Shown here one piece after another: positions 3,898 through 33,655 of a DNA stretch of 36,852 nucleotides (the first letter of the stretch is position 1; each line of letters begins with the position of its first letter). The DNA comes from Clostridiales bacterium (GTDB lineage Bacteria > Bacillota > Clostridia > Saccharofermentanales > Saccharofermentanaceae), in contig JAILNZ010000101.1 of NCBI GenBank assembly GCA_024691135.1, forward strand, positions 1 to 36,852, written 5' to 3'. Under the pieces are notes generated by a model. The model saw only the letters and a list, made by a program, of their open reading frames with translations, did not search any database and had not been told where the DNA came from. The position numbers were made by a program, and so were the translations under genes.

Positions 3898-3934
3898 AAG
3901 AAGGCCCGAAGTAAAAGATATCCCGGGCCTTCTT
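3898..3934 (-). terminator. Candidate terminator hairpin at the end of the Dlt-like operon
   Basis: 11-bp perfect inverted repeat AAGAAGGCCCG/CGGGCCTTCTT about 40 nt after the lipoprotein stop; T-tract weak on minus strand. Confidence 0.5.
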
Positions 3935-3973: not shown

Positions 3974-4549
3974 TTATTCCGCTGCGGTATAAGTAATAGA
4001 CTCAACCGTGCCGTCCTTGAAGATGAAGGACAGCTTTGTTCCGCCGTCGACTATCGTCATCGACGAATTGCCGTCGCCATCGATATTATAAGAGGAATAA
4101 AGTCCCCTTATGTCGTCTTCGGTCATTCCGATATATGCTCCCTCTGCCGTGTTTACGAGATCCGACTTGAGCTCGACGGATGATACGAGATCCCTGTCGC
4201 CGTCAGGATAAGTCCTTATGACAAAATCCGAATAGGTATATACCTTATCAAGTCCCTGGAAGGCACATGACTCGGCTTCAAAATAGCTCACCGGATCACC
4301 GAGGTCACTGATGAATGATGACGTATCCATGTCTATGGCAATTTCCTTGCCCTTGGCGACGAACTTGAGACTGGATGAGCTTTCCTGAGCTTTGCTCTCG
4401 GCTGCCCCTGAATTATCAGAAGCGACGGCTTCCGTGGCATCAGCTGCCTTTGACTCCTCACCTGAAGCGGTCTCTTCTCCATTGCATCCCGCAAAGCCCA
4501 TGACCATGATAAATGATATCAAAACTGCCGCGATCTTAAGTGGTTTCAT
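3974..4549 (-). CDS. Putative lipoprotein, last gene of Dlt-like operon
   Basis: 191 aa; signal peptide MKPLKIAAVLISFIMVMGFAGCNGEE with lipobox FAGC; low-complexity Ser/Ala/Glu linker then globular domain. Confidence 0.75.
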   Translation of the reverse strand: MKPLKIAAVLISFIMVMGFAGCNGEETASGEESKAADATEAVASDNSGAAESKAQESSSSLKFVAKGKEIAIDMDTSSFISDLGDPVSYFEAESCAFQGLDKVYTYSDFVIRTYPDGDRDLVSSVELKSDLVNTAEGAYIGMTEDDIRGLYSSYNIDGDGNSSMTIVDGGTKLSFIFKDGTVESITYTAAE

Positions 4550-5583
4550 TATTCTTCCTCCGTTATATTATTCATCTCTTCGATCATTTTATTATAAAGC
4601 TTGATCTTTTCCTCGTATATTTTGGTGTATTTCGGATCATTTCTGTGATCTTCAAGGCCGTAGTTATCCACAATATACTGTCCGAAGTATGAGGCTAGCT
4701 TTTCCGCCCCGTAGACATTCAGATGAAGTCCCGCATCATAGGTGTCATGAGACATATCAAGCCCGATCTCTTCGGAAAGCGGGATCATATTGATATATGT
4801 AAGGCCGTTTTCTTCGGCATATGAACTTACCTGCTCGTCCCATTCCGGATACCAGTACGGATACTCTATCGGAGCCTTGATCAGGATAAGCTCAATCCCC
4901 TCGTCCTTACACAGAGCCGTCATCTTGTCGAGATACATCATGGCGTTTTCGCCGAAGGAATAATCATCGAGCGGCATAGGATCAGGGAACTCACCCTGGG
5001 GCATGATGTCTGTCCTCAGGTAGTAGCCGTTTACGGTCACCGGCTCCTTTTCGAAAAGGAATTTAAAGTCGTCTGACGTAAGTTCCTGCCACCTCGAGTG
5101 GTACCGCAGTATCGGGAAGACATAGTCTATGAAATCCTCCTCTTCCGTCATCGACGCCTTGATGTCGTTGACCTTGGACATCGACCACTTCATGCCGTCT
5201 AATGTCATCCTGTTATATGCTTCTTTCTGGGGCTTATTATATTTGAGCGAGAGAACGTTGAAGACAACGACCTTCGGCTTCTCATATTTGAGGGTCTCTT
5301 CCAGGAGATAATAGGACTGCCAGATGAGCTGCTGGGAACTGCCTCTTATGTAGGACGTGATGCCGTATTCCTCCCAGAGCGTCATGGTCGAGAAATTCTC
5401 ATAGACCTCGCAGTCGCCGATAAATAGCACATCATGACCTTCCGTTTCCTTGTAATATTCTTCGATCATGGCGCCCTCGACGATCTTGCCCTGATATTTG
5501 GGCATGAGGAGCCTTTGAAGGAACCAAAGTCCCCCCGTAAGGAAGATTATTATCAATATTGAAGCAATGATCTTTTTCTTCAT
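4549..5583 (-). CDS. SGNH/GDSL-like (DltD/AlgJ-type) membrane-anchored protein, Cys at predicted nucleophile position
   Basis: N-terminal TM; block I-like HDVLFIGDCEVYENFS; C-terminal block DAGLHLNVYGAEKLA; sits directly downstream of MBOAT gene. Confidence 0.78.
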   Translation of the reverse strand: MKKKIIASILIIIFLTGGLWFLQRLLMPKYQGKIVEGAMIEEYYKETEGHDVLFIGDCEVYENFSTMTLWEEYGITSYIRGSSQQLIWQSYYLLEETLKYEKPKVVVFNVLSLKYNKPQKEAYNRMTLDGMKWSMSKVNDIKASMTEEEDFIDYVFPILRYHSRWQELTSDDFKFLFEKEPVTVNGYYLRTDIMPQGEFPDPMPLDDYSFGENAMMYLDKMTALCKDEGIELILIKAPIEYPYWYPEWDEQVSSYAEENGLTYINMIPLSEEIGLDMSHDTYDAGLHLNVYGAEKLASYFGQYIVDNYGLEDHRNDPKYTKIYEEKIKLYNKMIEEMNNITEEE

Positions 5584-5591
5584 AAGACTCC

Positions 5592-7169
5592 TCAGAACTG
5601 ATTATATATGAACTGTGTCATGTCATAGCCTGTACCATACGCTCCGAATACTATTACCCCCATTAAGAGCAGTGCCAGGAGCGAATATCTTAATGTGAAG
5701 GCATTGTCGGATATGACATGTCCTCTTTTGTTTTTGATGATGCTCACCGTAAGGATGATCACAAACGAGACGGCAAGTACAATATAATCCGCCGCCGTAA
5801 GACCGATCCCGAGAAGTGAACCGTCAGAGAATATCTTCAGGTTCACCTTCGTAAACATCGTTCCTATCATCTTAAACGTCAGAGGGACATTTCTGTAGCA
5901 GTCGAACATCCTTATCATGCTCATGAGAAGGATAGTCCTTACTATCTCGAAGATGCCGTACAAAGGCTTGTCCTTGACCTTGAACTTACCGTGGAACTTC
6001 GCGTACAAGGGCTCGAGTTCCTGGGACGCCATTATGACAACGTAGTTCATGAGACCCCATACGATGAAGTTCCATGCAGGTCCGTGCCACAGGCCAGTCG
6101 TAAACCACACGAGAAGCGACGCGAGATATACCGTAACGCGCTTGCCGATCTTCTGTCCCAGGTGTTCGCGTGACCACTTGGACAGCTTCAGCATCGGCGT
6201 GCAGACGGATACCGGATAGAAGATATAATCGGTGAACCAAGTGCCCATCGAGATGTGCCAGCGGTTCCAGTATTCCTTGATATTTTTCGAGAAGTACGGG
6301 AGGTTGAAGTTCTCTTTTACGTCGACCCCGAGGACCTTGGAGATACCTATGGTGATATCGATGCCGCCCGTGAAGTCGCAGTAGAGATCGAATGCGTAGA
6401 ACAGCATCGCGACGAAGACGAATGTGCCTTTATATGTATCTGTATCACCCGTAAGAGCGATCACGGCAGGAGCGATCCTGTTCGCGACGACGACCTTCTT
6501 GAAATAGCCCCAGATGATCCTCGTAAGGCCCGTGGAGATATTCTTCTCGAGTAACTTATGCTCGCCGAAAAGAGTCGGTGCCAGGTCATCATATCTGCAG
6601 ATCGGTCCCTGGACCAGGAGCGGGAAAAAAGATACGAAGAGCATCAGCTTAAAAGGATTTTTCTGAGGTGTCGTCTTGCCCCTGTAGACGTCTATTACGT
6701 AGCTGCACGTCTGGAACGTGTAATAAGAGATCGCGGCAGGGACTATGATGTTCATCTCCCTTATCTTTGAGCCGTCCTTGAGGAGCAGGTTTATGTTATC
6801 GATAACGAAGTTCGTGTACTTGGTAACGCAAAGGATACCGAGGGCGATTATAAGACCAATGATAAGGAATATCCTTTTTCGGGTCTTGGCCCTGCCTTTG
6901 ACTTCCTTCTTCTGTTCCTTGGTGATCTTATCCTTGTTCGAATCGATATATGCCTTTGTCTTAAGGTCGATCCTTCCCATCAGGATCGTGCATATATATG
7001 CGGCGAGGAAAGTTACGAAGATGAATATGAGATATCTCTTGTCCGCGGCAAAATAAAAACCGATGCTCGCGATAAGGAGCAGCGGCCACTGCGCCTTCTT
7101 CGGAAGCAGATAGTATAATACCGCAGGTATGATGACTGCGGCAATGAATCCCGCGGACGTGAATATCAT
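5592..7169 (-). CDS. MBOAT family O-acyltransferase (DltB/AlgI-like)
   Basis: 525 aa, polytopic; KEYWNRWHISMGTWFTDYIFYPV and TGLWHGPAWNFIVWG with the expected MBOAT His. Confidence 0.93.
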   Translation of the reverse strand: MIFTSAGFIAAVIIPAVLYYLLPKKAQWPLLLIASIGFYFAADKRYLIFIFVTFLAAYICTILMGRIDLKTKAYIDSNKDKITKEQKKEVKGRAKTRKRIFLIIGLIIALGILCVTKYTNFVIDNINLLLKDGSKIREMNIIVPAAISYYTFQTCSYVIDVYRGKTTPQKNPFKLMLFVSFFPLLVQGPICRYDDLAPTLFGEHKLLEKNISTGLTRIIWGYFKKVVVANRIAPAVIALTGDTDTYKGTFVFVAMLFYAFDLYCDFTGGIDITIGISKVLGVDVKENFNLPYFSKNIKEYWNRWHISMGTWFTDYIFYPVSVCTPMLKLSKWSREHLGQKIGKRVTVYLASLLVWFTTGLWHGPAWNFIVWGLMNYVVIMASQELEPLYAKFHGKFKVKDKPLYGIFEIVRTILLMSMIRMFDCYRNVPLTFKMIGTMFTKVNLKIFSDGSLLGIGLTAADYIVLAVSFVIILTVSIIKNKRGHVISDNAFTLRYSLLALLLMGVIVFGAYGTGYDMTQFIYNQF

Positions 7170-7175
7170 CGGTTA

Positions 7176-7406
7176 TCAGTCCTCATCCTCGATCTTTTTA
7201 ATGAGGGCATAAAGAGCCTTGGCTGAGTTGAAGTTCTCAGGGATTATCTCTTCTGCCGGAATGACGACATCGAATTCCTCGTTGATCTCGGAAATAACGG
7301 ATACGATATCAAAAGAATCGAGTATCTTATCGTCGATCAATGTCTCACATGTGTCAAAGTCAACATCCGGATGGAGGTCTTTCAGGATCTTGATGAGTTC
7401 TTCCAT
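7176..7406 (-). CDS. Acyl/peptidyl carrier protein (DltC-like)
   Basis: About 76 aa from MEELIKIL; phosphopantetheine site ...DDKILDSFDIVSVISEIN; SD AAAGGA upstream of ATG at 7406, so the ORF-track start at 7433 is probably too early. Confidence 0.88.
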   Translation of the reverse strand: MEELIKILKDLHPDVDFDTCETLIDDKILDSFDIVSVISEINEEFDVVIPAEEIIPENFNSAKALYALIKKIEDED

Positions 7407-7419
7407 TTTCTTTTTCCTT

Positions 7420-8934
7420 TCACATTGAAGCAAGTTTTTTTCTGTCGATCTTTCCGTTGGCCGTGAGGGGCAATCTGTCCAGCTTCTCGACCTTGTTCGG
7501 GATCATATATCTCGGGAGCTTGTCCTTAAGTACGGTTATGACTTCACCGGTCTCTATGTCTCCCGAATAGAAGAGCCGGATCTTGTCCTTCTCTTTGTCA
7601 TATACACAGCAGCAGTGTCTTATGCCTTCTATGTTATTGACGTTGACTTCTATCTCGCCAAGCTCGATCCTGTGACCCATATGCTTGATCTGATAGTCTT
7701 TTCTCGATACGAAGCAGAGTTCGCCCCTGCTGTTTCTCTTTCCTATATCACCCGTCCTGTAGATAAGTTCAGGATAAAGATCATTAAGCGGGTTTTGAAC
7801 GAATACTTCCCTTGTCTTTTCGAAGTTCTTATAGTATCCCATCGTAAGGGATGTTCCTACAACGCAGATCTCGCCTTCCTCACCGTCTTTACAAAGTTCG
7901 TTCTTCTCGTTAAGAAGAAGTATCCTCGTATTCCTGAACGGACCTCCGATCGGGACCGTATCGTCAAGGTCGAATTCGCGGTCGACCTTAAAGTAGCAGC
8001 ACATGCCCGTAGCTTCCGTAGGTCCGTAGAGATTGGTGAACCCGGCATTAGGAAGAGCCTCGCGCCATATATTGAGCTGCTTTATCGGGAAGACCTCGCT
8101 TCCGAATGCGATATTATCAAGATACTCCGGCTTTACCTTCTCGAAGGTCTTAAATGACGATATCATCGTGAGAGCCGACACTACCCAGCAGACGGTATTT
8201 ACCTTATGCTCGTTCAGGAATTCCACCAGCTTTACAGGAAACATAAAAAGCTGCTTGGGAACGATGACCGTCGTCGCGCCGAACTTCAGAGTCGGATAGA
8301 GCTCCTTGAGACAAGCATCAAAATAAAGCGGCGTCTGATTGGCAAATCTCGTCTCATGGTTAAATTCCAGGACCTCTGAGAGATTCTCGATATAATCGAT
8401 GACCGACCTGTGACATGCGACAACGCCCTTCGGAATACCTGTGGATCCTGACGTAAATACGATATAGATCGGGTCGGTATCTATCTGTTCATCCCTGATC
8501 TTGCCGAGCCTTTGATCATCGATAGCAGTCTTTATTGCCTCGTCATAAAGAATGACTTCTCCGTCATAATCCATCCCGCGGGAAAGTTCTGCCGTTTCCT
8601 CATCACATATCATGACTCTCGGCTTTAATGTCTGAAGGATAAGTTCCGTTCGAAACTTCGGCATCTCCTCGTCGATCGGTACATAGTAGCAGCCGCCGTA
8701 GACGCAGCCGAAGAATGCACTTACGGCATTCGGATGCTTTTTCATGAATACCACGACAGGCTCGGCGTAATAGCCCCTGATACTGAGGAGACTTCCTATC
8801 GCCCTGCTACTTTTATATAACTCCGCGAAGGTAAGATCGCTTTTGATATCCCCGTTCGAGAACGCGACCTTATCCGGATATTGAAGCACCGTCTTGTCGA
8901 GATACTCCATTACATTTCTTTGCTGCATGTTCAT
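7420..8934 (-). CDS. Stand-alone amino-acid adenylation enzyme (DltA-like, ANL superfamily)
   Basis: 504 aa; IVFTSGSTGIPKG (A3), NLYGPTEATG (A5), YRTGDIG (A7), QIKHMGHRIELGEIE (A8), NGKIDRKKL (A10). Confidence 0.93.
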   Translation of the reverse strand: MNMQQRNVMEYLDKTVLQYPDKVAFSNGDIKSDLTFAELYKSSRAIGSLLSIRGYYAEPVVVFMKKHPNAVSAFFGCVYGGCYYVPIDEEMPKFRTELILQTLKPRVMICDEETAELSRGMDYDGEVILYDEAIKTAIDDQRLGKIRDEQIDTDPIYIVFTSGSTGIPKGVVACHRSVIDYIENLSEVLEFNHETRFANQTPLYFDACLKELYPTLKFGATTVIVPKQLFMFPVKLVEFLNEHKVNTVCWVVSALTMISSFKTFEKVKPEYLDNIAFGSEVFPIKQLNIWREALPNAGFTNLYGPTEATGMCCYFKVDREFDLDDTVPIGGPFRNTRILLLNEKNELCKDGEEGEICVVGTSLTMGYYKNFEKTREVFVQNPLNDLYPELIYRTGDIGKRNSRGELCFVSRKDYQIKHMGHRIELGEIEVNVNNIEGIRHCCCVYDKEKDKIRLFYSGDIETGEVITVLKDKLPRYMIPNKVEKLDRLPLTANGKIDRKKLASM

Positions 8935-9632
8935 CAGTCTTCACCTTTTACCTTGTAGCCCGTCGCCCTGATCGCTGCCCTGGCGAGGATCTCCATCGCA
9001 TCTATGGTGCCTGTCATGTTAAGATCCGTCTTTTTCAGGAGCGACAGCTCTGTACAACCTAAGACGACCATCTTTGCGCCTTTGTCCCCAAAGTATGACA
9101 TGATCCGGTCAAACCGTTCTTTTGAAGGCTCTTCTCCGGCTTTTATGTCTTTATATATCAGGTCCATTATATCCTTTTGGATGTCTTTTGACGGCACTAC
9201 CGGTTCTATATCATGTTTTCGAAAAGCATCCTGGAAGATCTCACATCTTACCGTACCTTCGGTAGCCATGATGCCGGCCTTCCCTATACCGAGCCTTTGA
9301 AGTTCCGCGACAGTCTCATCGACCGCATTAAGGACCCGGACCTTAGTATTCCGGCAGAGCTTTCCGTGGAAACAGTGAGCCGTTATGCAGGGGATCGCGA
9401 TCACATCAGCACCGCTCTTCTCCAGTATCTCCGCGCTGTCATTTATATAAGGCAGAGGATCCTCATCACTCCCGCCCAGGATGAAAGCCGTCCTGTCAGG
9501 CGTCTTAGGATTACTGATGACGATCATCTCAATATGGTCCTGATCCTTCGAAGCCTTCGTAAGATCAGTGATCATCTCCATAAAATATACTGTTGCCATC
9601 GGGCCCAGCCCGCCGATTATCCCGAGTTTCAT
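8934..9632 (-). CDS. Aspartate/glutamate racemase family protein (RacX/YgeA-type)
   Basis: MKLGIIGGLGPMATVYFMEMI; two catalytic-Cys motifs IAIPCITAH and VVLGCTELSLL; SD GGAG before ATG at 9632. Confidence 0.88.
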   Translation of the reverse strand: MKLGIIGGLGPMATVYFMEMITDLTKASKDQDHIEMIVISNPKTPDRTAFILGGSDEDPLPYINDSAEILEKSGADVIAIPCITAHCFHGKLCRNTKVRVLNAVDETVAELQRLGIGKAGIMATEGTVRCEIFQDAFRKHDIEPVVPSKDIQKDIMDLIYKDIKAGEEPSKERFDRIMSYFGDKGAKMVVLGCTELSLLKKTDLNMTGTIDAMEILARAAIRATGYKVKGED

Positions 9633-9643
9633 ATTATCTCCTG

Positions 9644-10930
9644 TCATGCCGGATCGATAGTCTTTGCGTAATAGTTGATCCTGTATTGTACCGACTTGGT
9701 CGAAGGCTCCGGCAGGCCCTCGTGATCATAGTTATATCTGAAGCCGTGAACGTAGCAAAGATCCCACAGTTCATCTCCCGTGAGAAGATATGCGTTCATC
9801 GGCGTGTTGGCGCTGCTGCAGTCCATATAATACCACTCGCCCTCAACACAGAGCATGTTCCAGTAATGGCTTGTCGTAACCGGATCGCACCGCTCGATGA
9901 GATAATTATCGATACCTGCGCAGTCCAGGAGAGCCTTGGCACAGACGGCATATGTAAAGCAGTCACCTCGCAGCGTCGTGAAACCTTCATATGCGCCCGC
10001 AGTCCAGTGAGACTTATCCGATGTTCCGATATAGTGAAGATTATATTTACACCAGTTATAGATCGCGAAGCCCTTCTCCGCGTCTGTCATGCTGTTATCA
10101 ACTATCGTATCCAATACCTTGTTTGCCTCGGCATAGACAAGATCCGGCTCGACATATCCTTCAGGCTTTGCGATTATCGTGACCTGCGTCTTGACTTCGC
10201 TCATATTTCCCGTCTTATCGGTCGCCCTGTATGTCAGTTCATAAATTCCCGGCGTCGTTATATCGACCTTGGAATTATCCACCTCAAGAAGCGGATACGG
10301 ATCCATGTCGTCTTTTACGGATATATTCTCCTTATACTTGATCGGATCATTCTCATAAGATTCGATAGGCTCGACACCGCTTATAACCGGCGGATCGAAA
10401 TCATCTATTACCAGAAGCCTGACAGGAAGGATAGTCTCATTTCCCGCAATATCGGTAAACCTCACGCTTCCTTCGTTCTCACCGCCTTTTTTTGCATCAG
10501 GCTCTTTCTCAAAGTCTATCGTTATGGGATTCAGGTCACTGCAGTTCACGACATAGTCCATTACATCGGGAGCAATATTGACATCCGTCTTCAGATCCCT
10601 TACGGTAGCCTCGGGCGGCACGGTATCGACTATGGTAAGGACACTTGTATATCTCACATTGTCACACCAGAAAGGCACATAATATACAGCGGGAGTCTTA
10701 TTGTCGAGCGAACTTAGGTCGATCGCCGGCTTAACATATTCGATATCATCAGTAAAAAGAGACAGGTCAATATTATCTCCCGCTTCGATCGTCACTTCGG
10801 GAATAACTTTGCCTTCATAACGGTCGAGCCTGTCGAGCGTGAAAGTGAGCAACGCAAGACAGCACGAGAGCATAAGTATAATGATGAGCAGCTGGCGGCC
10901 GCTCACAGTGAACCTGCTTTTTCCCTTCAT
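9644..10930 (-). CDS. Membrane-anchored transglutaminase-like protein with repeated extracellular beta-sandwich-type segments
   Basis: N-terminal TM; Cys-His-Asp triad: LRGDCFTYAVCAK, TSHYWNMLC, WYYMDCSSANTP; middle region DTVPPEATV..., FDPPVISGVEP..., PGIYELTYRATDKTGN. Confidence 0.82.
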   Translation of the reverse strand: MKGKSRFTVSGRQLLIIILMLSCCLALLTFTLDRLDRYEGKVIPEVTIEAGDNIDLSLFTDDIEYVKPAIDLSSLDNKTPAVYYVPFWCDNVRYTSVLTIVDTVPPEATVRDLKTDVNIAPDVMDYVVNCSDLNPITIDFEKEPDAKKGGENEGSVRFTDIAGNETILPVRLLVIDDFDPPVISGVEPIESYENDPIKYKENISVKDDMDPYPLLEVDNSKVDITTPGIYELTYRATDKTGNMSEVKTQVTIIAKPEGYVEPDLVYAEANKVLDTIVDNSMTDAEKGFAIYNWCKYNLHYIGTSDKSHWTAGAYEGFTTLRGDCFTYAVCAKALLDCAGIDNYLIERCDPVTTSHYWNMLCVEGEWYYMDCSSANTPMNAYLLTGDELWDLCYVHGFRYNYDHEGLPEPSTKSVQYRINYYAKTIDPA

Positions 10931-12378: not shown

Positions 12379-13550
12379 TTCATGAGCTCCGGCATGATCC
12401 ACTTATAGAAATATTCGACATAATCATTACTGTCGACGGTATAAGTGTCAGTTCCGCCTTCCTGCCCGTTGGCCTCGAGGTAAGTATCATTGCTCGCCTC
12501 CGACACTTCAGCAACGACATCGGATATCCTTCCCGTCTCCTTGGACGACCAGTATGCCTGATCCGCCAGGATATCCTTAAGGACCGGTTCAAACTCACTT
12601 AAGCTGTAGAACCGGTCCAGATTTCCCAGGAGCGATCCGACACTGATAAAGATCTGGAAATATCCCGAATATCTGAAATCGGCGCGGCTCGACATGATGC
12701 ATGCAATGGCCGCGATAAAATTCGCATCATATTCCTTGGCATATCCTTTTGCATGAGCGAGCTCGTGACACACCGTATAAGGGAACTCGTAGACAGTCAT
12801 ATAATCGACATTGATATTTGATTCCCCGAGCATCGGATCATACATTCCTATGATATGCGTATAACTCCATAACGAACTTACCATGACAGGCTTTGCCCTC
12901 ACAAAGGTCGAACTCATACCGAGATCATACTGCCTGTTTATGTATTCCAATGCCACATTCGCATCAAATACCGTCTCAGCAAAACTCGTCTTCATATGGG
13001 ATACGCCGTTGATGTCATTCCCGAGCTCGCTCCTCGCCTGGATCATTCCCATATATGCCCACATCTCGACGGCATATATCTCGGAATACTCGCGCTCCGT
13101 CAGCTTAAGACCCATCCTGGCCGCAACCGTATCGCGCCTGTAGTTAAACCCGTGCATCAGCTGGAACGAACCGAAGATAAGGAGCACCAGCGCCAGTATG
13201 ATGCAAAGCCCCCTGTATAAGAACTTCCTTAAACGCTTCCTGATTATGCTCTTTATAAATCCCGCGATAATAAGAATGATGACCGGGATAAGAACTATGC
13301 TGCCCACGATAACGATCATCTCGGTGAACGAAAACATAAAGATATTGGAAAAACAGTTCCCGACGTAAGAGACCTTCGGAAAGATAAACTCCGAATAGCT
13401 GTTTGCGACCTTCCTCGTATAGAAAGGAGCATTCGGGATAAACCAGAACATAAAGATCGATACCGCCATAAGTACCGGTATCGCGATCTTCAATATCAGG
13501 CTTAACACCTTATGTCTTTTCGAAAAAGATCTCTTGTATTCTCTTAACAT
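12375..13550 (-). CDS. DUF3810 family membrane protein with HExxH motif
   Basis: 391 aa, three N-terminal TM; FPYTVCHELAHAKGYAKEYDANFIA. Confidence 0.82.
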   Translation of the reverse strand: MLREYKRSFSKRHKVLSLILKIAIPVLMAVSIFMFWFIPNAPFYTRKVANSYSEFIFPKVSYVGNCFSNIFMFSFTEMIVIVGSIVLIPVIILIIAGFIKSIIRKRLRKFLYRGLCIILALVLLIFGSFQLMHGFNYRRDTVAARMGLKLTEREYSEIYAVEMWAYMGMIQARSELGNDINGVSHMKTSFAETVFDANVALEYINRQYDLGMSSTFVRAKPVMVSSLWSYTHIIGMYDPMLGESNINVDYMTVYEFPYTVCHELAHAKGYAKEYDANFIAAIACIMSSRADFRYSGYFQIFISVGSLLGNLDRFYSLSEFEPVLKDILADQAYWSSKETGRISDVVAEVSEASNDTYLEANGQEGGTDTYTVDSNDYVEYFYKWIMPELMK

Positions 13551-14332
13551 ATCTTCCTCAACAGATGATCCACACCATAAGTCAAAGCCAGAACTATAGG
13601 CTGGTGTACGACATATATTATCAGTGAATGCCTTCCGATGAATTCAAAAGGCCTTGTGATCTTTAATAACGGACCAGGAGCATTCTTAAACAGCGTTTTC
13701 CTGTCAGAATATATGATCCTTCCTATCACTGCTCCCACGAGAAATACGCCGATCCACGGAAAGAGCGGCATATAATCTCCCATGAACGGATGTGTCTTTC
13801 CCGTAATACCGATCGGTATAAAGATATTGGTATCGACTTTGCCGTCATATTTGACCAGTTCCTTTCCGACCTGTGCAAAATACAGCCCGAAGAAAGTCAG
13901 AAGAACGTTCATGACCTTAGGATCGATCTTCGATTTCTTTTCGATAAGAGAAAGAAGTGCGTATACGAATATGCTTACCGCGAGCATGTGAAGGACATTA
14001 AATATGATCAGGCACTCGATGCCAAAACGGTATGTCGCCACATATGTCACGGCCGTGACGCACAAAGCCACGACAAGTAGTTTTCCGGCGCGCTTGAAAT
14101 TATTCTTGGAAAAAGTACAACAGACACCCGAGATACCTACAAACAGGCAAAGAAAGAACGGCTCGATAAATACCCAGAACCATCTGTATTCCATAAACTC
14201 AAAGGCATCATATCCGAAGATATATCTGATATCATACGCGAAATGCATAAGTATCATCAAAAACAGAGCGAGCCCTCTCAGAAAATCAAGTTCAAATGCC
14301 CTCGTTTTCTTTACTACTGATCCTTCAGCCAT
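13544..14332 (-). CDS. Heparan-alpha-glucosaminide N-acetyltransferase (DUF1624)-like membrane protein
   Basis: FELDFLRGLALFLMILMHFAYDIRYIFGYD; FIGRHSLIIYVVHQPIV. Confidence 0.85.
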   Translation of the reverse strand: MAEGSVVKKTRAFELDFLRGLALFLMILMHFAYDIRYIFGYDAFEFMEYRWFWVFIEPFFLCLFVGISGVCCTFSKNNFKRAGKLLVVALCVTAVTYVATYRFGIECLIIFNVLHMLAVSIFVYALLSLIEKKSKIDPKVMNVLLTFFGLYFAQVGKELVKYDGKVDTNIFIPIGITGKTHPFMGDYMPLFPWIGVFLVGAVIGRIIYSDRKTLFKNAPGPLLKITRPFEFIGRHSLIIYVVHQPIVLALTYGVDHLLRKIC

Positions 14333-17028: not shown

Positions 17029-18093
17029 TTAGTCTCCGTTTGCCGGCTGATTATCTTCTTCACCAGCGTTAGCAGGATTCAATCCCGTGCCGTCAGCGAA
17101 CTCAAATTCGAACTGATAAGGGATCTTCTCGAACGGATCTTCATAAAGTGTGCCGTACTGCTTGTAGATCAATACCATCATAGCATTTGAGAAATATGAA
17201 CAGTATGGTCTGTTGGAGAACTCTTCGATTCCGTCACCGGCGATCTGATACATATAGAAAGAGTTCTTCTCGTTGAAGTTGAAGAGCGGAACACCGATCA
17301 TACCGCCGGAACAATCAACATTCTCATCGCCGTCCCATTCGATCTTGACCTGCTCTTTTTCCTTAACAGCAAGTATTCTGCTGGATCCGAGATCAGTACC
17401 ATAGCAGTCGATCTCTGCCCTGAGATATAAGAAACCAGTTGTTGAATCTTCAACAGTTACACTATGTACTTTAATACAATTCTTATAAGTATCATTATTT
17501 GCGATCGTCTTAAGGCCGTCTATGAACTGTGTATAACCCGTGATCTGATAATATGCAGGATCACCCATATGAGCAACGGCATCTGTGATAAGATCCTTTT
17601 CGAGCTCAGTACCGCCGGTATACCAGGCAGGTTTCTTGTTGAATTCAGGAATCGTGAATCCGTCTGTAGTTGCATATTCTACATAAACTCTCTTTAAGAC
17701 AAGCTTCTCTGCTGCCATTGATCCGTCAGGAAGATATATATCGCTTGTAGGGATATCTTCTACCTTGATCTCGGAAAGGTACGGACAATTGCTGCTCTCA
17801 AATACTCTCATTACATAGTCTGCAACAACATCGCCGTCAATATGAGCGAACAAAGATCCTTCTTTTGCCTTGATATCTTTTTCCAATTTCGAGATGTTGT
17901 CCTTTGTGCTCTCATTGGAAGCCTTAAGAGCATCGAGATACTCCAAGCGTGACTTTCTGTTATCGAGTTCCGCATTAGCCGAATCGATCGCCTTACCCAA
18001 AGGTCTGAGTACTGCTACATATACAATACCTACTATGAGCAAAAGGATGACAACATATATCAATACCTTTTCTCTTGTTGATAAATTATTCAT
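17029..18093 (-). CDS. pilO: PilO-like type IV pilus inner-membrane assembly protein
   Basis: N-terminal TM plus coiled coil (STREKVLIYVVILLLIVGIVYVAVLRPLGKAIDSANAELDNRKSRLEYL); position after pilN. Confidence 0.72.
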   Translation of the reverse strand: MNNLSTREKVLIYVVILLLIVGIVYVAVLRPLGKAIDSANAELDNRKSRLEYLDALKASNESTKDNISKLEKDIKAKEGSLFAHIDGDVVADYVMRVFESSNCPYLSEIKVEDIPTSDIYLPDGSMAAEKLVLKRVYVEYATTDGFTIPEFNKKPAWYTGGTELEKDLITDAVAHMGDPAYYQITGYTQFIDGLKTIANNDTYKNCIKVHSVTVEDSTTGFLYLRAEIDCYGTDLGSSRILAVKEKEQVKIEWDGDENVDCSGGMIGVPLFNFNEKNSFYMYQIAGDGIEEFSNRPYCSYFSNAMMVLIYKQYGTLYEDPFEKIPYQFEFEFADGTGLNPANAGEEDNQPANGD

Positions 18094-18096
18094 ATA

Positions 18097-19002
18097 TTAT
18101 GCCTCCTCCTCTGTTGTTGTAGCTTGTGGCGTATACTGCAGTATGATCTCAGCATCGGCAGTAACATGCATTGCAAACTTATCCGCACTTATTACACTCT
18201 GCAGATCCTCATCACTTATAGCAATTCCGTTAATGGATATTGAAGTCAGGTCGTATTTCTGACCGGAAATCTCGATCTGGGCAACGTGGTCTTTCTCGTA
18301 CGGAGCACCGGAGTCGTACATCTGTGAATCATCAAGTGAAAGGATGCTTCCGTCTGCTGCTACAGACATGATAGAAACGCAATACTGTGCATCGAGATTA
18401 GCCGTGATCTCGAATTCATACTTTGCATTGATAAAATTCAATGCCATATCGTTCTCATCCATATCCTCGGAAGGATCCCATCTCTTCTCGGCAACGTTAA
18501 CGTTCGTGAAGAAATTATATCCGTTCAGCATGTGAGCGACCTGGGTCATTGCATAATATGTATGAGCTTCACCCGTTATCTTAAGGGTTCCTTTATCGAT
18601 ACTGTAACCCGTAAGTACAGTACTTGACGGAATGTGATTGTTGATCTCATCGATGATCTGGAACTTAACGCCTGTTTCCTTATCTGCTTCAGCTCTGATA
18701 GCCGAAATTATGTAAGCATATCTGTTATTGGTTTCAGCCTTCTTGGCAAGTTCCTCTGCCTCAACCTGAAGATTTGCATAATCTGCGCTCTGGAAGAGCT
18801 GATCATAATATTTTACTTCAGTCTTGATTACACCCCATCTGATGAACTGTACTATCGCAAGAGTAACCAGCAAAGCAGCTACAACAATGCCTCCTATGAT
18901 CATATAACCCATTATTCGGGCTACTGCTTGTGAAGAAGCCGCAAACTCCGAGAAGAAGTTCATGTCCTTCTTAGCAAATTCCTTTTTGCCTATACTAGCC
19001 AT
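18097..19002 (-). CDS. pilN: PilN-like type IV pilus assembly protein
   Basis: Cytoplasmic N-term, one TM, then IIDEINNHIPSSTVLTGYSIDKGTLKITGEAHTYYAMTQVAHML typical of PilN. Confidence 0.8.
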   Translation of the reverse strand: MASIGKKEFAKKDMNFFSEFAASSQAVARIMGYMIIGGIVVAALLVTLAIVQFIRWGVIKTEVKYYDQLFQSADYANLQVEAEELAKKAETNNRYAYIISAIRAEADKETGVKFQIIDEINNHIPSSTVLTGYSIDKGTLKITGEAHTYYAMTQVAHMLNGYNFFTNVNVAEKRWDPSEDMDENDMALNFINAKYEFEITANLDAQYCVSIMSVAADGSILSLDDSQMYDSGAPYEKDHVAQIEISGQKYDLTSISINGIAISDEDLQSVISADKFAMHVTADAEIILQYTPQATTTEEEA

Positions 19003-19015
19003 TTTTTACCTCCTC

Positions 19016-20131
19016 TTATTCACGGATCAAAGCGCCGCAGCAGTTAACGAACTCGGAAATAATAAAGTTCTTAGGTCCTGTTACAGTACTTAATGTGTGC
19101 AAAACTTCTACCTGAGTGCCGAGCTGACGTGAAAGCTCTTTGTCGATCTTCTTGTATCCGGATCCCGAACCATAGAGGAAACATGTGCTGATACTGTCAA
19201 CATGGAACTTGGAGATAGAGAACTGAGCTGTTCTGGAAACTGCATCCGTCAAGCTCTTGAAATATGCATTAACGGCACTCTGGAGTGAAGGCTCGTCAGC
19301 AAGAGACTCGTGCCAGACATCAATATCCTCAACAGGAACTGTCATATCGGCATCACTCTTTGTGATGTTAAGTCTTCTAGCAAGAGAGGACTGCTTCTCT
19401 CCGCCGCCCTGCATCTTCTTAACGGTCTCAGCAACCTGACGGATATTTCCGTGACCAAACTGAAGTCTTCTCGAAAGAACCGGGAACCCCTTATCAAGAA
19501 CCGTGATCGTAGTTGTCTTACCGGAAAGCTCGATCAGAAGAAGAGTCGAATTGGAAACATTAACGTTACCGTTGATCATTCCGCCGTTAAAGAGCTTCCT
19601 TATGGCATTAGGATTAACATCCAATGCATAAGGTGTAAGATCAGTATTCTTAAGAAGCTCTTTATAATCATTTGCTACATCGATCGGGATAGCAGTAGCT
19701 CTAACCTTGAGTTTCTCTGCCTTTGTCTCCTCGTCCAATGTCTTGCCGTATACGATGTATTCTACGATCATATCTCTGTTGGAGCTCTGACCTAAGATCT
19801 CGTACTTAACCATATCCTTGAGCTGTTCAGGTCTTACTGAAGGGAGCTCAAGATCACGTGTATGCATGAAACCGCCCTCGATCGTGAGGATGGTGCTCTT
19901 TACATTGATATCAAGCTTAGCCAATGCATGCTTGAGAGCCATAACAACACCGAAAGAATCGGAAATCGCACCATCGTTGATCGTTTCTGAATCCAGCGGG
20001 ATGATACCTGCCTTATCAATGTTTACTACACCGGTCTTGTAATTATAGCTGCCGACTGCCACTTTGAGGTTGGAGCTCGATGCATCTATAACCAATTGCT
20101 GTGCACTTTTGCCAAATCCTGGAAAACCCAT
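19016..20131 (-). CDS. pilM: PilM-like actin-fold type IV pilus assembly protein
   Basis: QLVIDASSSNLKVAVGSYN..., LPSVRPEQLKDMVKYEILGQ, LLLIELSGKTTTITVLDKG. Confidence 0.87.
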   Translation of the reverse strand: MGFPGFGKSAQQLVIDASSSNLKVAVGSYNYKTGVVNIDKAGIIPLDSETINDGAISDSFGVVMALKHALAKLDINVKSTILTIEGGFMHTRDLELPSVRPEQLKDMVKYEILGQSSNRDMIVEYIVYGKTLDEETKAEKLKVRATAIPIDVANDYKELLKNTDLTPYALDVNPNAIRKLFNGGMINGNVNVSNSTLLLIELSGKTTTITVLDKGFPVLSRRLQFGHGNIRQVAETVKKMQGGGEKQSSLARRLNITKSDADMTVPVEDIDVWHESLADEPSLQSAVNAYFKSLTDAVSRTAQFSISKFHVDSISTCFLYGSGSGYKKIDKELSRQLGTQVEVLHTLSTVTGPKNFIISEFVNCCGALIRE

Positions 20132-20155
20132 TATTTTTTCTCCTTTCGGTTACTG

Positions 20156-21367
20156 TTAGATATTAATGAACGATGCCATCTTGAAGATCGGCAGACCACA
20201 GGCAGCAACTACGAGACCAACTACTATAGCCATGATGATGATCATACAAGGCTCAAGAGCAGCGGTAAGCTTTGCTGTCGCCGAATCCGCTTCATCCTCA
20301 AAGAAGTCAGCGGCTTTATCCAAAATCGAATCAAGAGTACCGGACTCTTCACCGATAGCAACCATTGCATAGATCATAGGCGGGAACTCCTTGATAGGTC
20401 TTATAGCCTTTGAAAGGTTCATACCTTTACGGATGTCGATACGAGCATCGTACAAGCGCTTCTCAAGGATCTTGTTATCCAATGTCGCCGATGTGATCTC
20501 AATAGCCTGAAGAACACTGATACCGCTTCGGAGAAGCGTAGCCATTGTTCTTGTAAATCTTGCGGCTGCCGTCATCTTGGTGGATTTACCGACGATCGGG
20601 AACTTGAGCATCAACTTAGCCCAAGTCAACGAACCTGATTCGGATTTTTTCCATACCTTGAAGCTGACAACAATTGCAGCCACAACTAAAATATAGATGT
20701 ACCAGAACTTAACGAGGGACTGGCTGAATGCCATGACACCCTTTGTAAGAGCAGGAAGTTCTCCTCCGAGCTCATTGATCGTATCTGAAAGTCTAGGAAC
20801 AACAAAGACCATGAGACCGACTGTAACAACTGCCGTAACGAATGCGAGGATCTTCGGGTAAACCAACGCGGAAGAAACCTTATTCTTGAGCTTAGCTTCC
20901 TTCTGGAAGTGATCTGCAAGCCTGAGCATAACCTCATCGAGCTTACCTGATTCTTCACCTGCAGAGACCATGGTAACCATGATACTCGGCAAAGCCGCGC
21001 TCTGTTCCTTAAATGCTTCCGACAAAGTCTTACCTGACTGGATAGACTCATAAATAGCACCTACGACGTTCTTGGCTTTTTTACTCTCAACCTGCTGATA
21101 GAGCATATCCAAAGCACGGATGATCGTAATACCGGCAGACAGCAATGAAGCAAGCTGTCTGGAGATGATAACGAGATCCTTCGTCTTGAGCTTCGGGCTT
21201 GAGATATCAGCGGTCAAGATACTTGCGCCAGTGTCAGCCTTGATTGAAGCAATGTATTTGCCGTCAGCCTTAAGAAGCCTTGAAGCATCATTGACGTTGT
21301 TAGCCTCAATGACACCCGAAGACTGTTTGCCTTTGGCATCAACTACTTCGTATCTGAATTTTGGCAT
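20156..21367 (-). CDS. pilC: Type IV pilus platform protein PilC (T2SSF family)
   Basis: MPKFRYEVVDAKGKQSSGVIEA; SRQLASLLSAGITIIRALDML; MVSAGEESGKLDEVM; MVAIGEESGTLDSILDKAADFFEDEAD. Confidence 0.95.
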   Translation of the reverse strand: MPKFRYEVVDAKGKQSSGVIEANNVNDASRLLKADGKYIASIKADTGASILTADISSPKLKTKDLVIISRQLASLLSAGITIIRALDMLYQQVESKKAKNVVGAIYESIQSGKTLSEAFKEQSAALPSIMVTMVSAGEESGKLDEVMLRLADHFQKEAKLKNKVSSALVYPKILAFVTAVVTVGLMVFVVPRLSDTINELGGELPALTKGVMAFSQSLVKFWYIYILVVAAIVVSFKVWKKSESGSLTWAKLMLKFPIVGKSTKMTAAARFTRTMATLLRSGISVLQAIEITSATLDNKILEKRLYDARIDIRKGMNLSKAIRPIKEFPPMIYAMVAIGEESGTLDSILDKAADFFEDEADSATAKLTAALEPCMIIIMAIVVGLVVAACGLPIFKMASFINI

Positions 21368-21391
21368 ACTATATAACCTCCTGAACAGTTC

Positions 21392-22519
21392 TTATGCGAA
21401 ATCCAAATCGCCGAACAGAGGCGATGTGCCTGCGATAGAATTGGAACCGCCGGCGTTGGATAAATACCTCTTCAAGTCATCCGGATATCTGCATCTGTTA
21501 AATGCAGTCTCTCTCGAGATAACATTACGCTTGCAGAGCTCTGCCAGATAGAAATCCAAAGGACACATACCATCCTTAAGGCTGGTAGCGATCGAACTGT
21601 CGATCTGGTATGTCTTACCCTCACGGATAAGGTTACGGATAGCATCGTTAGCGATCATGATCTCGAAAGCCGCAACACGTCCGCCGCCGATCCTCTGAAC
21701 GAGAGTCTGGGAAATAACTGCGATAAGGTTACCGCCGAGCTGTACTCTAACCTGATCCTGCTGATGAGGAGGGAATACGTCGATAATACGGTTAACCGTA
21801 TCAGCTGCACCGGAAGTATGAAGTGTGGACATAACCAGGTGACCCGTCTCAGAAGCTGTGATAGCGGTACTGATAGTATCAAGGTCACGCATCTCACCTA
21901 CGAGGATAACATCAGGGTCCTCACGGAGAGCTGCTCTGAGTGCATTGGCGAATGACAATGTATCTTCGTGAACTTCTCTCTGATTGATCATGGCCTCACC
22001 GTGCATATGGAGATACTCGATAGGTTCCTCAAGAGTAAGGATGTGGCACTTTCTGCAAGTATTGATGTGTCCGATCATCGCAGCAAGTGTCGTGGACTTA
22101 CCTGAACCCGTAGGACCTGTAACAAGGATAAGTCCCCTCGGCTTCAAAGCCAGATCCTTGAACAGATTAGGCAGACCCAACTTCTCACATGTAGGGATCT
22201 CGTTGGTAATGGTTCTTGCAGCAAGTGCATATGAACCTCTCTGCTTAAAAATGTTGCATCTGAATCTGCTGTAATCCTTAACGACGTACGAGAAGTCGAT
22301 CTCACCTCTCTCATTAAGGTATTGCTGTCTTGATTTGTCGATCATTGACTTACAAAGATATTCTGTATCCGCCTGAGTCAAGATCTGATTGCTCATAGGG
22401 ATCAAGTCGCCGTTAACACGGATCATCGGAGGAAGACCGACGGTAATGTGCGTATCGGACGCTTGTCGTCTGACAGCTTCTGTAAGGATCGCTTCAATCG
22501 TTAATGTAAAACCTTCCAC
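21392..22519 (-). CDS. pilT: Type IV pilus retraction ATPase PilT
   Basis: ASDTHITVGLPPMIRVNGDL; VTGPTGSGKSTTLAAMI; LREDPDVILVGEMRDLDTISTAITASETGHLVMSTLHT; NLIREGKTYQIDSSI. Confidence 0.95.
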   Translation of the reverse strand: MEGFTLTIEAILTEAVRRQASDTHITVGLPPMIRVNGDLIPMSNQILTQADTEYLCKSMIDKSRQQYLNERGEIDFSYVVKDYSRFRCNIFKQRGSYALAARTITNEIPTCEKLGLPNLFKDLALKPRGLILVTGPTGSGKSTTLAAMIGHINTCRKCHILTLEEPIEYLHMHGEAMINQREVHEDTLSFANALRAALREDPDVILVGEMRDLDTISTAITASETGHLVMSTLHTSGAADTVNRIIDVFPPHQQDQVRVQLGGNLIAVISQTLVQRIGGGRVAAFEIMIANDAIRNLIREGKTYQIDSSIATSLKDGMCPLDFYLAELCKRNVISRETAFNRCRYPDDLKRYLSNAGGSNSIAGTSPLFGDLDFA

Positions 22520-22531
22520 AATATACCTCCT

Positions 22532-24205
22532 TTAGTTTTCATCAATGGAATAAGCTACTCTATTCATCTCATCGATCGTTGTAATACCCTCTACAACAAG
22601 TGCTGCCGCAGAATCTGCAAGCATCTGCGTACCCTCGCTGACTGCGAGCTTACGCATCTCTTCCTCACTTGCTCTCTTCTCGATAAGACTCTTCATGGCT
22701 GACGTCATGACAACGATCTCGTGAATAGCAATACGACCCTTGTATCCCGAGCCGTTACAATCCTGACATCCCTCGCCCTTGTAGAGCTTCTGGCCTTCTT
22801 CGATATGAACTTTCTGACGCTCATAGTCAGTAGGCTCATAAGCTACACGGCAACCATTGCATATACGACGAACAAGACGCTGTGATACAACACCTACCAA
22901 TGCCGAACAAACCATGTAAGGTTCAAGTCCCATATCGATCAAACGGTTGATGGACGATACGGCATCGTTGGTGTGGATTGTACTGAAAACCAAGTGACCG
23001 GTGATAGCAGCTCGCATAGCGATCTCGGCAGTCTCACCGTCACGAATCTCTCCGACGAGGATAATATCAGGGTCCTGACGGAGAATAGAACGAAGACCGC
23101 TCGCAAAGGTCATACCTGCTTTTGCATTGACCTGAACCTGGTTAAGTCCAGGGATCTTGATCTCGACAGGGTCTTCAACTGTAATGATATTTGTATCAGG
23201 CTTATTCTTCTCAGAGAGAAGTGTATAAAGGGTTGTTGTCTTACCGGAACCGGTAGGACCTGAGATAAGGCAGATTCCCTGAGGAACTCTGATGATCTTA
23301 TCTATAAGTGCATTGTTATGATCACTTATACCGAGGTACTTACGGTTAAGGTTTCCGTCATTCTTTGCAAGGATACGGATAACGGTCTTTTCTCCGTAGA
23401 TAGTAGGAAGTACGGACACACGCATGTCGACTTCCTCGCCGTTGATGATAGTCTGGATACGGCCGTCCTGCGGGATCCTCTTCTCTGCGATATTCATTCC
23501 GCTAAGGATCTTGATTCTTGTAGTAATAGCATCTCTGGCATTTACAGGGTTACTCATGATCTCCTGCATGACACCGTCGATACGGATACGGACACGCACA
23601 CGGTCTTCCATAGGCTCGATGTGAATATCTGAAGATCCTGCTCTGATAGCATAATCGATCATTGAGTTAACGAGCTTAACAACAGGAGCACTGTTGACCT
23701 GCTCACTGACTTCTGCATCGAGACCTGCGATCAAGTCCTCATCGAAGTCTTCGTTAAGTTCCTGAGCTGCCTTCTCGGCACTCTCTTTACCGTAGTTAAC
23801 GCTTATGCATGTCTCGATAGCAGTCTTGGTAGCAAGCATGAGGGATATCTCTCTGCCTGTTATGAACTGGAGATCATCCTGAACAAGAACGTTAAGAGGG
23901 TCATCTATCGCAACTACGAGCTTCTCATCGTCAAAGCCGATAGGAACGATCGTGTTGTCCTTACAGTATTTCTCAGATACGAGAGCGGTAGCCTTAGGGT
24001 CTACCTCTACGTTATTAAGGTCTATGATAGGATAATTATACTGGCTTGATACTGCACGGAGGATATCGAACTCCGACATAAGTCCCATCTCTATGATTAC
24101 TTCACCAAGGCGTTTACCTGACTGTTTCTGAACACTCAAAGCCTCAGAAAGATCTGTAGCAGAGATAAAACCGCTGTCAATAAGGATATCACCTAATCGC
24201 TTCAT
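22532..24205 (-). CDS. pilB: Type IV pilus extension ATPase PilB (GspE family)
   Basis: ISGPTGSGKTTTLYTLL; ILRQDPDIILVGEIRDGETAEIAMRAAITGHLVFSTIHTNDA; CNGC...CQDC zinc site; N-terminal MshEN-like region. Confidence 0.96.
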   Translation of the reverse strand: MKRLGDILIDSGFISATDLSEALSVQKQSGKRLGEVIIEMGLMSEFDILRAVSSQYNYPIIDLNNVEVDPKATALVSEKYCKDNTIVPIGFDDEKLVVAIDDPLNVLVQDDLQFITGREISLMLATKTAIETCISVNYGKESAEKAAQELNEDFDEDLIAGLDAEVSEQVNSAPVVKLVNSMIDYAIRAGSSDIHIEPMEDRVRVRIRIDGVMQEIMSNPVNARDAITTRIKILSGMNIAEKRIPQDGRIQTIINGEEVDMRVSVLPTIYGEKTVIRILAKNDGNLNRKYLGISDHNNALIDKIIRVPQGICLISGPTGSGKTTTLYTLLSEKNKPDTNIITVEDPVEIKIPGLNQVQVNAKAGMTFASGLRSILRQDPDIILVGEIRDGETAEIAMRAAITGHLVFSTIHTNDAVSSINRLIDMGLEPYMVCSALVGVVSQRLVRRICNGCRVAYEPTDYERQKVHIEEGQKLYKGEGCQDCNGSGYKGRIAIHEIVVMTSAMKSLIEKRASEEEMRKLAVSEGTQMLADSAAALVVEGITTIDEMNRVAYSIDEN

Positions 24206-31427: not shown

Positions 31428-33655
31428 GATCTTCTCTCTTTCACGCGAAACAATAATATTACTACTATACTACATATAACCGAAAACATGACCACACAAA
31501 GCGAAATAAAGAGGAAAATATCCCATGTCTCGATCGAGACGGTGACGGGCTTGTCCGTTTCTATGTCAAATGCGAGCTTGCCGCCGATGTCATAAGTCTC
31601 GACCTCCTGCCCGTCCACCTTGACCTTTACCATGTTGTCGGATTTCCTTCCCGTCAGGACGGTAACATTGCCGGTCACTTCAAAAGGTCCGTCGTAAGTC
31701 TGTGCTTTTGAGACAAAGGCGTCAACGACTTCCTGATCGACTGTGTAGAAACTGTAGATCGATCTCTCGCGGATGTTCGGATCATCTATGAGGAACTTGG
31801 CGCTGAACGTCTCCGCGCCGCCCAGATCCATCTTCCGGAGGACAGGTCCGTTAAGTTCCGTCATCGTCTCTTCGCCGTCTTTTTCGATAATGAGCGTAAC
31901 GGGACCTTTGTGGTCGGTATAGACGTAGAGGTCGTTTTCGAGTTCCCAGAATTCGAGCGAATACATCTTGTAGGATACTACCGTCTTTCCTCCCTCGACC
32001 ATGTCAGCGCCGTTAAAGACCGGACGCTCCCCGTCCCTGAAGATGCTGTTGGAATTCATCAGGGGCATGAATAAAGGCTCATAGACCGAGGAGGCGGAGA
32101 TGAGGTTGAGCATTTCCGGAAGGTTCCGGTACTCGTTCGAGAAGCCGTTCAGGATATAAAAATCGTCATTGTCTTTTTCGAAAAAGTCCATGTTATCGAG
32201 AGGTATCTCCGTCGTAAGGGCATACTCCCTGTTATCGAAAAGGACTGCCGCCTCATCTGTGGGCGCGCCGTAAGACGATATGGGAAGAATAAATGACAGA
32301 TTAAGAAGGAGCCCCGATAAGACAAGGCAGGATGATATGAGAGGATGGATCCGGTCACGTTTCTTGATGAGGAAGTACGTTACGACAACGCAGAGCGCCG
32401 TGAAATACATCGAGAAGAAACTCGGAGTAACTTCGTTTCTTGAGTTGTTGGAAAGAATGACGAAGGCGATCACCGCAAAGCAGATGCCTGCGCAGAGGGT
32501 GTTTGAGATGCGGCCGATATTTCTGAGGCTGATCGCGGCCGCAAAGATCAGGAGCGAAGACAGAAACGCAAATCTGGCGCCCGTTATGATACCCGTATTC
32601 ATGACCGTTGTCGAAAACAGGATGCTGATCTTGAACAGAAAATTCGAAGAATAGAATGCGTAATAGGCAATGACGCAAAAAGCCAGGCTCGAACGGAGCC
32701 TGATTGGGATCGACGGATTGAAAAAGAACAGAAGCACCAGTATCAGGACAAAGACCGTCATGGAAAGGCCGATGCCCGAAGGGAGCGACGTCTGAAAGGC
32801 TTTGCCGTTAAAAAACCGGATAAAGAGATCAAACATCGATGACCTGAGCTCGAGATCGATCAGGTCATCCTCGGTAAGAGGAATGTCGGAACTGAGGATG
32901 GTGTTTGCGAGAGTAAATGCGGATAATCCGACAGATATGAGAGTAAAAGGCAGAGTCTTCAAAAAGAGGATAAAAGAAGATCCGAGGTTCCTTCCGACTG
33001 CCATCGCAACTACAAGAGAAGTTATGAGAACGAACGGGAGCACTGACATAAGGTTAAGGCCTCCCGAGACGTATAAAAGAGCCGTTATGATGAGCGACAG
33101 GAACATCCCCTTCTTTAGTGAGGTGTCGTCACGCAGATATTCGATGAGGAAATCAAGGAAGACCGGGATGAGTATCACCGTATTCATCGCACATGAATAG
33201 GAGGAAATTCCCAGGACCGATGAGGAAAGGCTGTAGACCACGCTCAGGAGCACCGTAACGGGTACGCTAAGAGGAACCTGCTTTTTGAGAAAGCGGTGCA
33301 TGGTAAAAGAAGCAAGCGACAGCCTGATCACATAAGCCGCATAAAGGAACTTCGATACGTAAGCGGTAGATATGAAGGAAGAGATAAGTACGAACGGATC
33401 GAGATGTCCCAGGTAAAGGAGCCTCATGTCCCTGAAAGGGGATGAACTCACCACATAATCAATGTCCCTCAGAACGCCCCTGAAAAGGTCCATATCGAAC
33501 TTGCCCGTACGTAAAGTGAGCTCCTTGGGGATCTTTGTATCCCTGATGCCGAGCACAAAAGCACAGCCGAAGATGAACAGGGGCAGGAAAAGTACCGCCC
33601 ATGTCTCAAGGAAGCTGATGAAGACCTTGTCCGTTCTCTTAAGCCTGCGGAGCAT
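31424..33655 (-). CDS. YfhO-like polytopic membrane protein (paralogue 1)
   Basis: 743 aa, many TM then extracellular beta-rich C-terminal domain; overlaps the 919-aa YfhO gene. Confidence 0.7.
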   Translation of the reverse strand: MLRRLKRTDKVFISFLETWAVLFLPLFIFGCAFVLGIRDTKIPKELTLRTGKFDMDLFRGVLRDIDYVVSSSPFRDMRLLYLGHLDPFVLISSFISTAYVSKFLYAAYVIRLSLASFTMHRFLKKQVPLSVPVTVLLSVVYSLSSSVLGISSYSCAMNTVILIPVFLDFLIEYLRDDTSLKKGMFLSLIITALLYVSGGLNLMSVLPFVLITSLVVAMAVGRNLGSSFILFLKTLPFTLISVGLSAFTLANTILSSDIPLTEDDLIDLELRSSMFDLFIRFFNGKAFQTSLPSGIGLSMTVFVLILVLLFFFNPSIPIRLRSSLAFCVIAYYAFYSSNFLFKISILFSTTVMNTGIITGARFAFLSSLLIFAAAISLRNIGRISNTLCAGICFAVIAFVILSNNSRNEVTPSFFSMYFTALCVVVTYFLIKKRDRIHPLISSCLVLSGLLLNLSFILPISSYGAPTDEAAVLFDNREYALTTEIPLDNMDFFEKDNDDFYILNGFSNEYRNLPEMLNLISASSVYEPLFMPLMNSNSIFRDGERPVFNGADMVEGGKTVVSYKMYSLEFWELENDLYVYTDHKGPVTLIIEKDGEETMTELNGPVLRKMDLGGAETFSAKFLIDDPNIRERSIYSFYTVDQEVVDAFVSKAQTYDGPFEVTGNVTVLTGRKSDNMVKVKVDGQEVETYDIGGKLAFDIETDKPVTVSIETWDIFLFISLCVVMFSVICSIVVILLFRVKERRS

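Follow-up and report, generated by a model that had tools for sequence, protein, structure and literature searches.

A seven-gene operon of Clostridia predicted to aminoacylate the cell envelope by a carrier-fed MBOAT/SGNH pathway

Results and Discussion

Organization and conservation of the locus

We analysed a 36,852-nucleotide (nt) stretch of DNA from a Clostridiales bacterium of the family Saccharofermentanaceae (GenBank assembly GCA_024691135.1, contig JAILNZ010000101.1, positions 1 to 36,852; hereafter, the window). At positions 3974-10930 it carries seven open reading frames (ORFs), all on the minus strand, which encode, in the order of transcription, a transglutaminase-like protein (TG), a racemase (RAC), an adenylation enzyme (A), a carrier protein (C), an MBOAT (B), an SGNH protein (D) and a lipoprotein (LP). 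Neighbouring genes overlap or nearly abut, with overlaps of 4 nt between TG and RAC, 1 nt between RAC and A and 1 nt between D and LP, and gaps of 13 nt from A to C, 6 nt from C to B and 8 nt from B to D. No intergenic gap exceeds 13 nt when the ATG at 7406, the most likely start codon, is taken as the carrier start; the TTG listed at 7433 was dropped.

A strong hairpin located directly after LP (3898-3934, minus strand; -23 kcal/mol, z -3.6) is the probable end of the transcript. At the other end, the stop codon of hemZ lies 38 nt upstream of the TG start; TG and the rest of the operon may be co-transcribed with hemZ, from a transcript start located further upstream. In a promoter scan, sites were no more numerous than in shuffled sequences.

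Families were assigned using Pfam and NCBIfam profiles, which named five of the seven proteins (TG, RAC, A, C and B); neither D nor LP had a strong single-sequence Pfam match. A sequence-only reading of this DNA had already described seven contiguous minus-strand ORFs with this order and these families, and all were found in place, in agreement with the profiles and fold comparisons.

To describe the distribution of the gene set, we used an alignment of the A enzyme to search a collection of genomes, one for each species; 538 related stretches were returned. The locus counts given in this section refer to the best 80 of these 538, together with loci from the genus and order of the window. The complete seven-gene set was observed in 56 of the 74 well-flanked loci of Clostridia, and the operon was complete except for the racemase in 12 of the 74. 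Among loci with enough downstream sequence, C was found in 80 of 82, B and D each in 81 of 82, and LP in 77 of 82. The set recurs in Lachnospiraceae, Oscillospiraceae, Clostridiaceae and unplaced Clostridia, including Blautia, Mediterraneibacter, Agathobacter and Cuneatibacter, at chromosomal sites that differ among relatives (beside hemZ, beside purF, and others). Because the set recurs at different sites, the grouping of these genes goes beyond chance, and the cassette appears to move, or to be kept, as a unit.

The earlier reading had likened the cassette to the dlt operon, while pointing out that canonical dlt operons are not normally built with a racemase and a transglutaminase-like protein, nor in the order A-C-B-D. 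Both genes proved to be conserved neighbours in Clostridia, TG being present in 92 and the racemase in 75 of the 96 loci with enough upstream sequence, and the earlier reading was not refuted by this check. The operon also lacks a DltA-type pocket and a DltX gene, as described below. As judged by its sequence, it is not a canonical dlt operon.

Adenylation enzyme and carrier protein

The A gene (7420..8934, minus strand) encodes a stand-alone amino-acid adenylation enzyme (PF00501 AMP-binding, 5e-62), which scored 283 bits against the DltA model, TIGR01734, whose cut-off is 560 bits. Alignment to GrsA gave the pocket DAKCAGLGMK, in which Lys210 corresponds to GrsA position 239. Relatives had this pocket or a similar one. 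A Lys was observed at position 239 in every member, and position 301 was never Cys, being occupied by Gly or, in a few members, by Ala, Val or Ser. In DltA, the methyl group of D-Ala is surrounded by Leu, Met and Cys268, the last of which is responsible for selecting the D-form (PMC8972799). In A, Lys stands at the Met position of this pocket and Gly at that of Cys268. Moreover, no DltA scored above the TIGR01734 cut-off in any of 85 genomes of the genus, the check for a canonical dlt operon that the earlier reading had called for; two control genomes passed. Because A does not have the DltA pocket and the 85 genomes hold no canonical DltA, the cargo is likely to be a residue other than D-Ala.

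The carrier protein (C; 7176..7406, minus strand; PF00550 PP-binding) has its putative phosphopantetheine Ser (codon 7316-7314) in a DSF motif, which was conserved at the 95% level among 39 homologues. It scored 28 bits against the DltC model (cut-off 68).

The locus might also be an ordinary, diverged dlt operon that attaches D-Ala to teichoic acid, with the racemase and TG as passengers. All four catalytic classes of a dlt operon (A, C, MBOAT and SGNH) are indeed present, and A and B match the DltA and DltB models, albeit below cut-off. The replacement of Met and Cys268 by Lys and Gly, and the conservation of the racemase and TG as neighbours, make this explanation very unlikely, as do features of B and D described below.

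At L118, L119, L120 and other loci, we observed a paralogue of the A enzyme with a DltA-like pocket Cys (DLQVLCLEAK), whose neighbours are not dltB, dltC or dltD.

MBOAT and its C-terminal hexapeptide

The B gene (5592..7169, minus strand) encodes an MBOAT of 525 amino acids (PF03062, 6e-17), in which His305 and His362 are conserved. The DltB model TIGR04091 matched with 146 bits, against a cut-off of 375, and B exceeds the DltB match by about 110 residues. Only residues 106-414 of the 525 were covered by the model, so that space remains for the extra helices. The protein ends in the putative acyl-shuttle hexapeptide FIYNQF (5595..5612, minus strand), which includes Tyr522 and fits the pattern FXYXXF, and a C-terminal FXYXXF was present in all 98 full-length B homologues. 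The Tyr of such a C-terminal FXYXXF has been reported to bear the acyl group in PatA and, within the Dlt pathway, in DltX; according to the same study, MBOATs with a fused FXYXXF work without a carrier protein and use acyl-CoA (PMC12148441). As predicted from its genes, the operon pairs a donor side fed by a carrier with a fused acyl shuttle. No separate DltX gene was found in the operon, whose genes leave no space for one, which again argues against an ordinary dlt operon.

SGNH protein and its conserved Cys

The D gene (4549..5583, minus strand) was assigned by profile and fold comparison to the SGNH-fold transferases, with an N-terminal transmembrane helix followed by an extracellular domain. 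The Lipase_GDSL_2 profile was matched by 44 of 47 D homologues, and D had no match to the DltD Pfam family. Foldseek matches of the AlphaFold model (mean pLDDT 94.2) were GDSL lipases, DltD of Enterococcus faecium (6pfx) and PatB of Neisseria gonorrhoeae. Fold comparison was required, as the sole match in a sequence search against solved structures was a spurious one to a sigma-factor regulator.

At the position of the SGNH nucleophile, the catalytic Ser is replaced by Cys58 (codon 5410..5412, minus strand), in the motif GDCE; all 96 D homologues have GDCE where the SGNH Ser motif would be expected. In the predicted structure, the first core strand (52-56) is followed by Cys58, which opens a helix (58-61), and Gly81, Asn109 and His287 seem to occupy the other SGNH block positions, giving a C-G-N-H set in which His287 directly precedes the final core helix. 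This change of Ser to Cys also speaks against an ordinary dlt operon.

To compare Cys- and Ser-type proteins, we used a wider profile search and the neighbourhoods of 20 matches. TG was present at 100 and LP at 98 of the 109 Cys-type loci, whereas neither was found beside any of the 13 distant Ser-type homologues, most of which lie beside an MBOAT. One locus tabulated with neither TG nor LP (L144) is of the Cys type. The genome that holds the window has another MBOAT pair, which also looks to be of the Ser type (GGSF). Since most Cys-type loci carry TG and LP and Ser-type homologues carry neither, the Cys of D, like TG and LP, seems to be part of the acceptor side and not of the supply side.

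The name motif of the SGNH family GSCFA presumably also puts a Cys after G-S, and may offer a precedent for Cys-type D. GSCFA (PF08885) was not detected in the operon proteins by Pfam scans, including those of D homologues. This family has been listed without a known function (PMC9487903).

Three other loci (L092:3254-7633, L211:2694-7903 and L224) hold A-carrier-MBOAT-SGNH cassettes with a Ser-type SGNH protein and no TG or LP; pockets there include DAKSFVLGIK and DSKDMCIVDK.

Transglutaminase-like protein, lipoprotein and acceptor candidates

The TG gene (9644..10930, minus strand) encodes a membrane-anchored protein with a bacterial Ig-like region and a C-terminal transglutaminase-like domain (Pfam Transglut_core, 5e-9), whose triad Cys324-His355-Asp370 was present in 126 of 126 homologues. 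LP (3974..4549, minus strand) is a lipoprotein with a lipobox Cys (Cys22), a second invariant Cys (Cys95) and, according to weak matches, a BLIP/DUF4309-like fold. D and LP form a single reading frame in five species. Such fusions were observed at L142, L143, L146, L147 and L167, and the lipoprotein signal-like segment lies inside the fusion.

The acceptor may be lipoteichoic acid or another surface glycopolymer; an amine of peptidoglycan or of a protein is a further candidate. The TagB/F teichoic acid polymerase (PF04464), which was considered as a required acceptor maker, matched in 75 of the 85 genomes; it was rejected in this role, being absent from several operon genomes that are more than 90% complete (e.g., G112, G001 and G115). 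LtaS-type sulfatases were found in all 10 genomes tested, so lipoteichoic acid stays a possible acceptor; this finding is also in line with a diverged dlt operon.

The Cys thioester of D might feed an amide and not a polymer ester. The aminoacyl group would then be transferred either to an amine of peptidoglycan or protein or, in a trans-thioesterification, to the Cys of TG, and TG would make the final bond. The association of Cys-type, and not Ser-type, D with TG and LP points in this direction, as do the invariant triad of TG, the extra invariant Cys of LP and the nearly complete operon genomes without any TagB/F match. However, domains of the transglutaminase-like type commonly serve as peptidases or scaffolds, and the LtaS-type enzymes present could make a lipoteichoic acid acceptor. 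We regard amide formation as possible but doubtful.

Racemase, cargo and proposed pathway

The RAC gene (8934..9647, minus strand) encodes a cofactor-independent racemase of the Asp/Glu family (PF01177, 9e-39). Its catalytic residues Cys87 and Cys198 and its carboxylate-site residues Arg52 and Lys169 were all present in 92 of 92 homologues, and we take residues of the Arg52/Lys169 type to be the two that bind both carboxylates in aspartate racemase. In these features it resembles aspartate and cysteate racemases (TIGR00035 and CuyB), from which the operon racemases differ in most cases by the CNT motif, and also by their association with an envelope operon.

Taken together, the seven genes probably serve to aminoacylate the cell envelope by a carrier-fed MBOAT/SGNH pathway with an acidic D-amino acid as cargo, a reading in which we place moderate confidence. 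An acidic D-amino acid of the Asp or Glu type is our best guess because of the pocket Lys239 and of a racemase that keeps both carboxylate-binding residues. In the cytoplasm, RAC would convert an acidic amino acid, most likely aspartate or glutamate, into its D-form. A would activate the alpha-carboxyl group of this D-amino acid with ATP and load it onto the phosphopantetheine of C, from which B would move the aminoacyl group through the membrane onto Tyr522 in its own FIYNQF tail. The tail would then pass the group to Cys58 of D as a thioester, and D would transfer it to the envelope acceptor, with TG and LP acting on the acceptor side, outside the membrane. The residues that each proposed step requires are present in the proteins.

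Several points weigh against this reading. Each chemical step is deduced from protein families and not from biochemistry, TG and LP are without an assigned role, and the identities of the substrate and of the acceptor, both of which we infer, are its least certain parts. The significance of Lys239 comes from our assumption that it is typical of Glu-activating domains of non-ribosomal peptide synthetases (surfactin synthetase; codes such as DAKDLGVVDK), a code that a literature search did not return. In the CNT motif, 88 of the 92 operon racemases have Ile, Val or Met where Asn is expected, and the top curated model for RAC was cysteate racemase (CuyB; 210 bits, cut-off 190), slightly above aspartate racemase (TIGR00035; 204 bits). 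Because of these two findings, plain aspartate is not certain to be the substrate. Finally, the racemase was absent from 21 A-enzyme rows of the tree, corresponding to about six losses, with a mostly unchanged pocket, and the D-chirality of the cargo is therefore not fixed. The racemase is not obligatory for the operon. One racemase-less clade has an altered A pocket (GGLGV) and up to three TG copies; the other losses keep the usual pocket. Covariation between racemase presence and A pocket was rejected as independent evidence: GGLGV occurred without a racemase in 13 of 13 cases, but a single clade represents one event and not proof.

These observations bear on a variant of the same pathway, in which the cargo would be either an L-amino acid or a different acidic D-residue, for example D-cysteate, and the racemase would serve a linked catabolic or pool function. 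The rank of CuyB among the curated models and the 12 operons that lack only the racemase, one such clade having the changed pocket, are consistent with it. Most loci nevertheless have the racemase next to A, and neither of its carboxylate-site residues varies; we consider this variant rather unlikely. As for the earlier proposal that the cassette makes a D-amino acid on site and attaches a residue other than D-Ala, its second part is retained as likely, given the pocket and the lack of DltA; production of the D-form on site is plausible. That reading overlooked the fused FXYXXF shuttle, the change of Ser to Cys in D and the link of this Cys to TG and LP.

Comparison with known systems

The operon belongs to the MBOAT-SGNH envelope acylation systems, of which it appears to be an undescribed variant. 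Like the Dlt system (DltXABCD, D-alanylation of teichoic acids), it has an adenylation enzyme, a stand-alone carrier, an MBOAT and an SGNH-fold partner. Unlike that system, it has neither a D-Ala pocket nor a DltX gene, follows the order A-C-B-D, has a Cys in D, and adds a racemase, TG and a lipoprotein. With PatA/PatB-type systems it shares extra C-terminal MBOAT residues, a fused FXYXXF shuttle and a separate SGNH partner; its donor, however, would be A plus carrier and not acetyl-CoA, and its SGNH partner has Cys and not Ser. No description of the operon was found in the open-access literature, subscription papers lying outside this search, which is weak evidence of novelty.

Carrier feeding and a fused acyl shuttle, each a known mechanism, would come together in this operon, which also predicts a Cys-based SGNH transferase. 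Resistance to cationic peptides and host signalling are governed by esters that modify the charge of the cell surface. If an acidic residue is indeed added by this operon, which is common in gut Clostridia, surface charge would be altered differently than by D-Ala, and an overlooked surface chemistry would exist in many gut bacteria.

Variants of the supply side

In some relatives, TG, B, D and LP were found without A, C or the racemase (L216, L217 and L221). Loci L206-L210, from the same genus, hold D (with GDCD), LP, two to six TG genes and family 2 glycosyltransferases, as well as a family 87 member in L206, but no A-C-B genes. In these genomes, an MBOAT lies elsewhere, beside carrier-like and FkbH-domain proteins. 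In this unlinked set (L240-L246), the MBOAT has FIYARI or FIYATI at its end and is accompanied by an FkbH-domain protein, a small carrier-like protein and a HAD phosphatase. Such a cassette could deliver glycerate to the cell surface.

We tentatively put forward, without holding it to be likely, that these loci represent a class of envelope acylation that is both widespread and undescribed. In this class, a 'CGNH' Cys-thioester transferase, a TG-like protein and a lipoprotein would form an amide of an acidic D-amino acid on an amine acceptor. The supply would be exchangeable, consisting of A, carrier and racemase; of an MBOAT alone; or, in genomes without A-C-B genes, of the unlinked FkbH, carrier and MBOAT proteins, possibly delivering glycerate.

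Other genes of the window

Just upstream of a DUF3810 gene and hemZ, the window encodes a membrane protein similar to heparan-alpha-glucosaminide N-acetyltransferase (HGSNAT_cat; 13544-14332). Type IV pilus/type II secretion genes (T2SSM, PilM_2 and T2SSE) were observed at 17029-24205. A large YfhO membrane protein is encoded at 33639-36398; in other Bacillota, the YfhO family is linked to lipoteichoic acid glycosylation.

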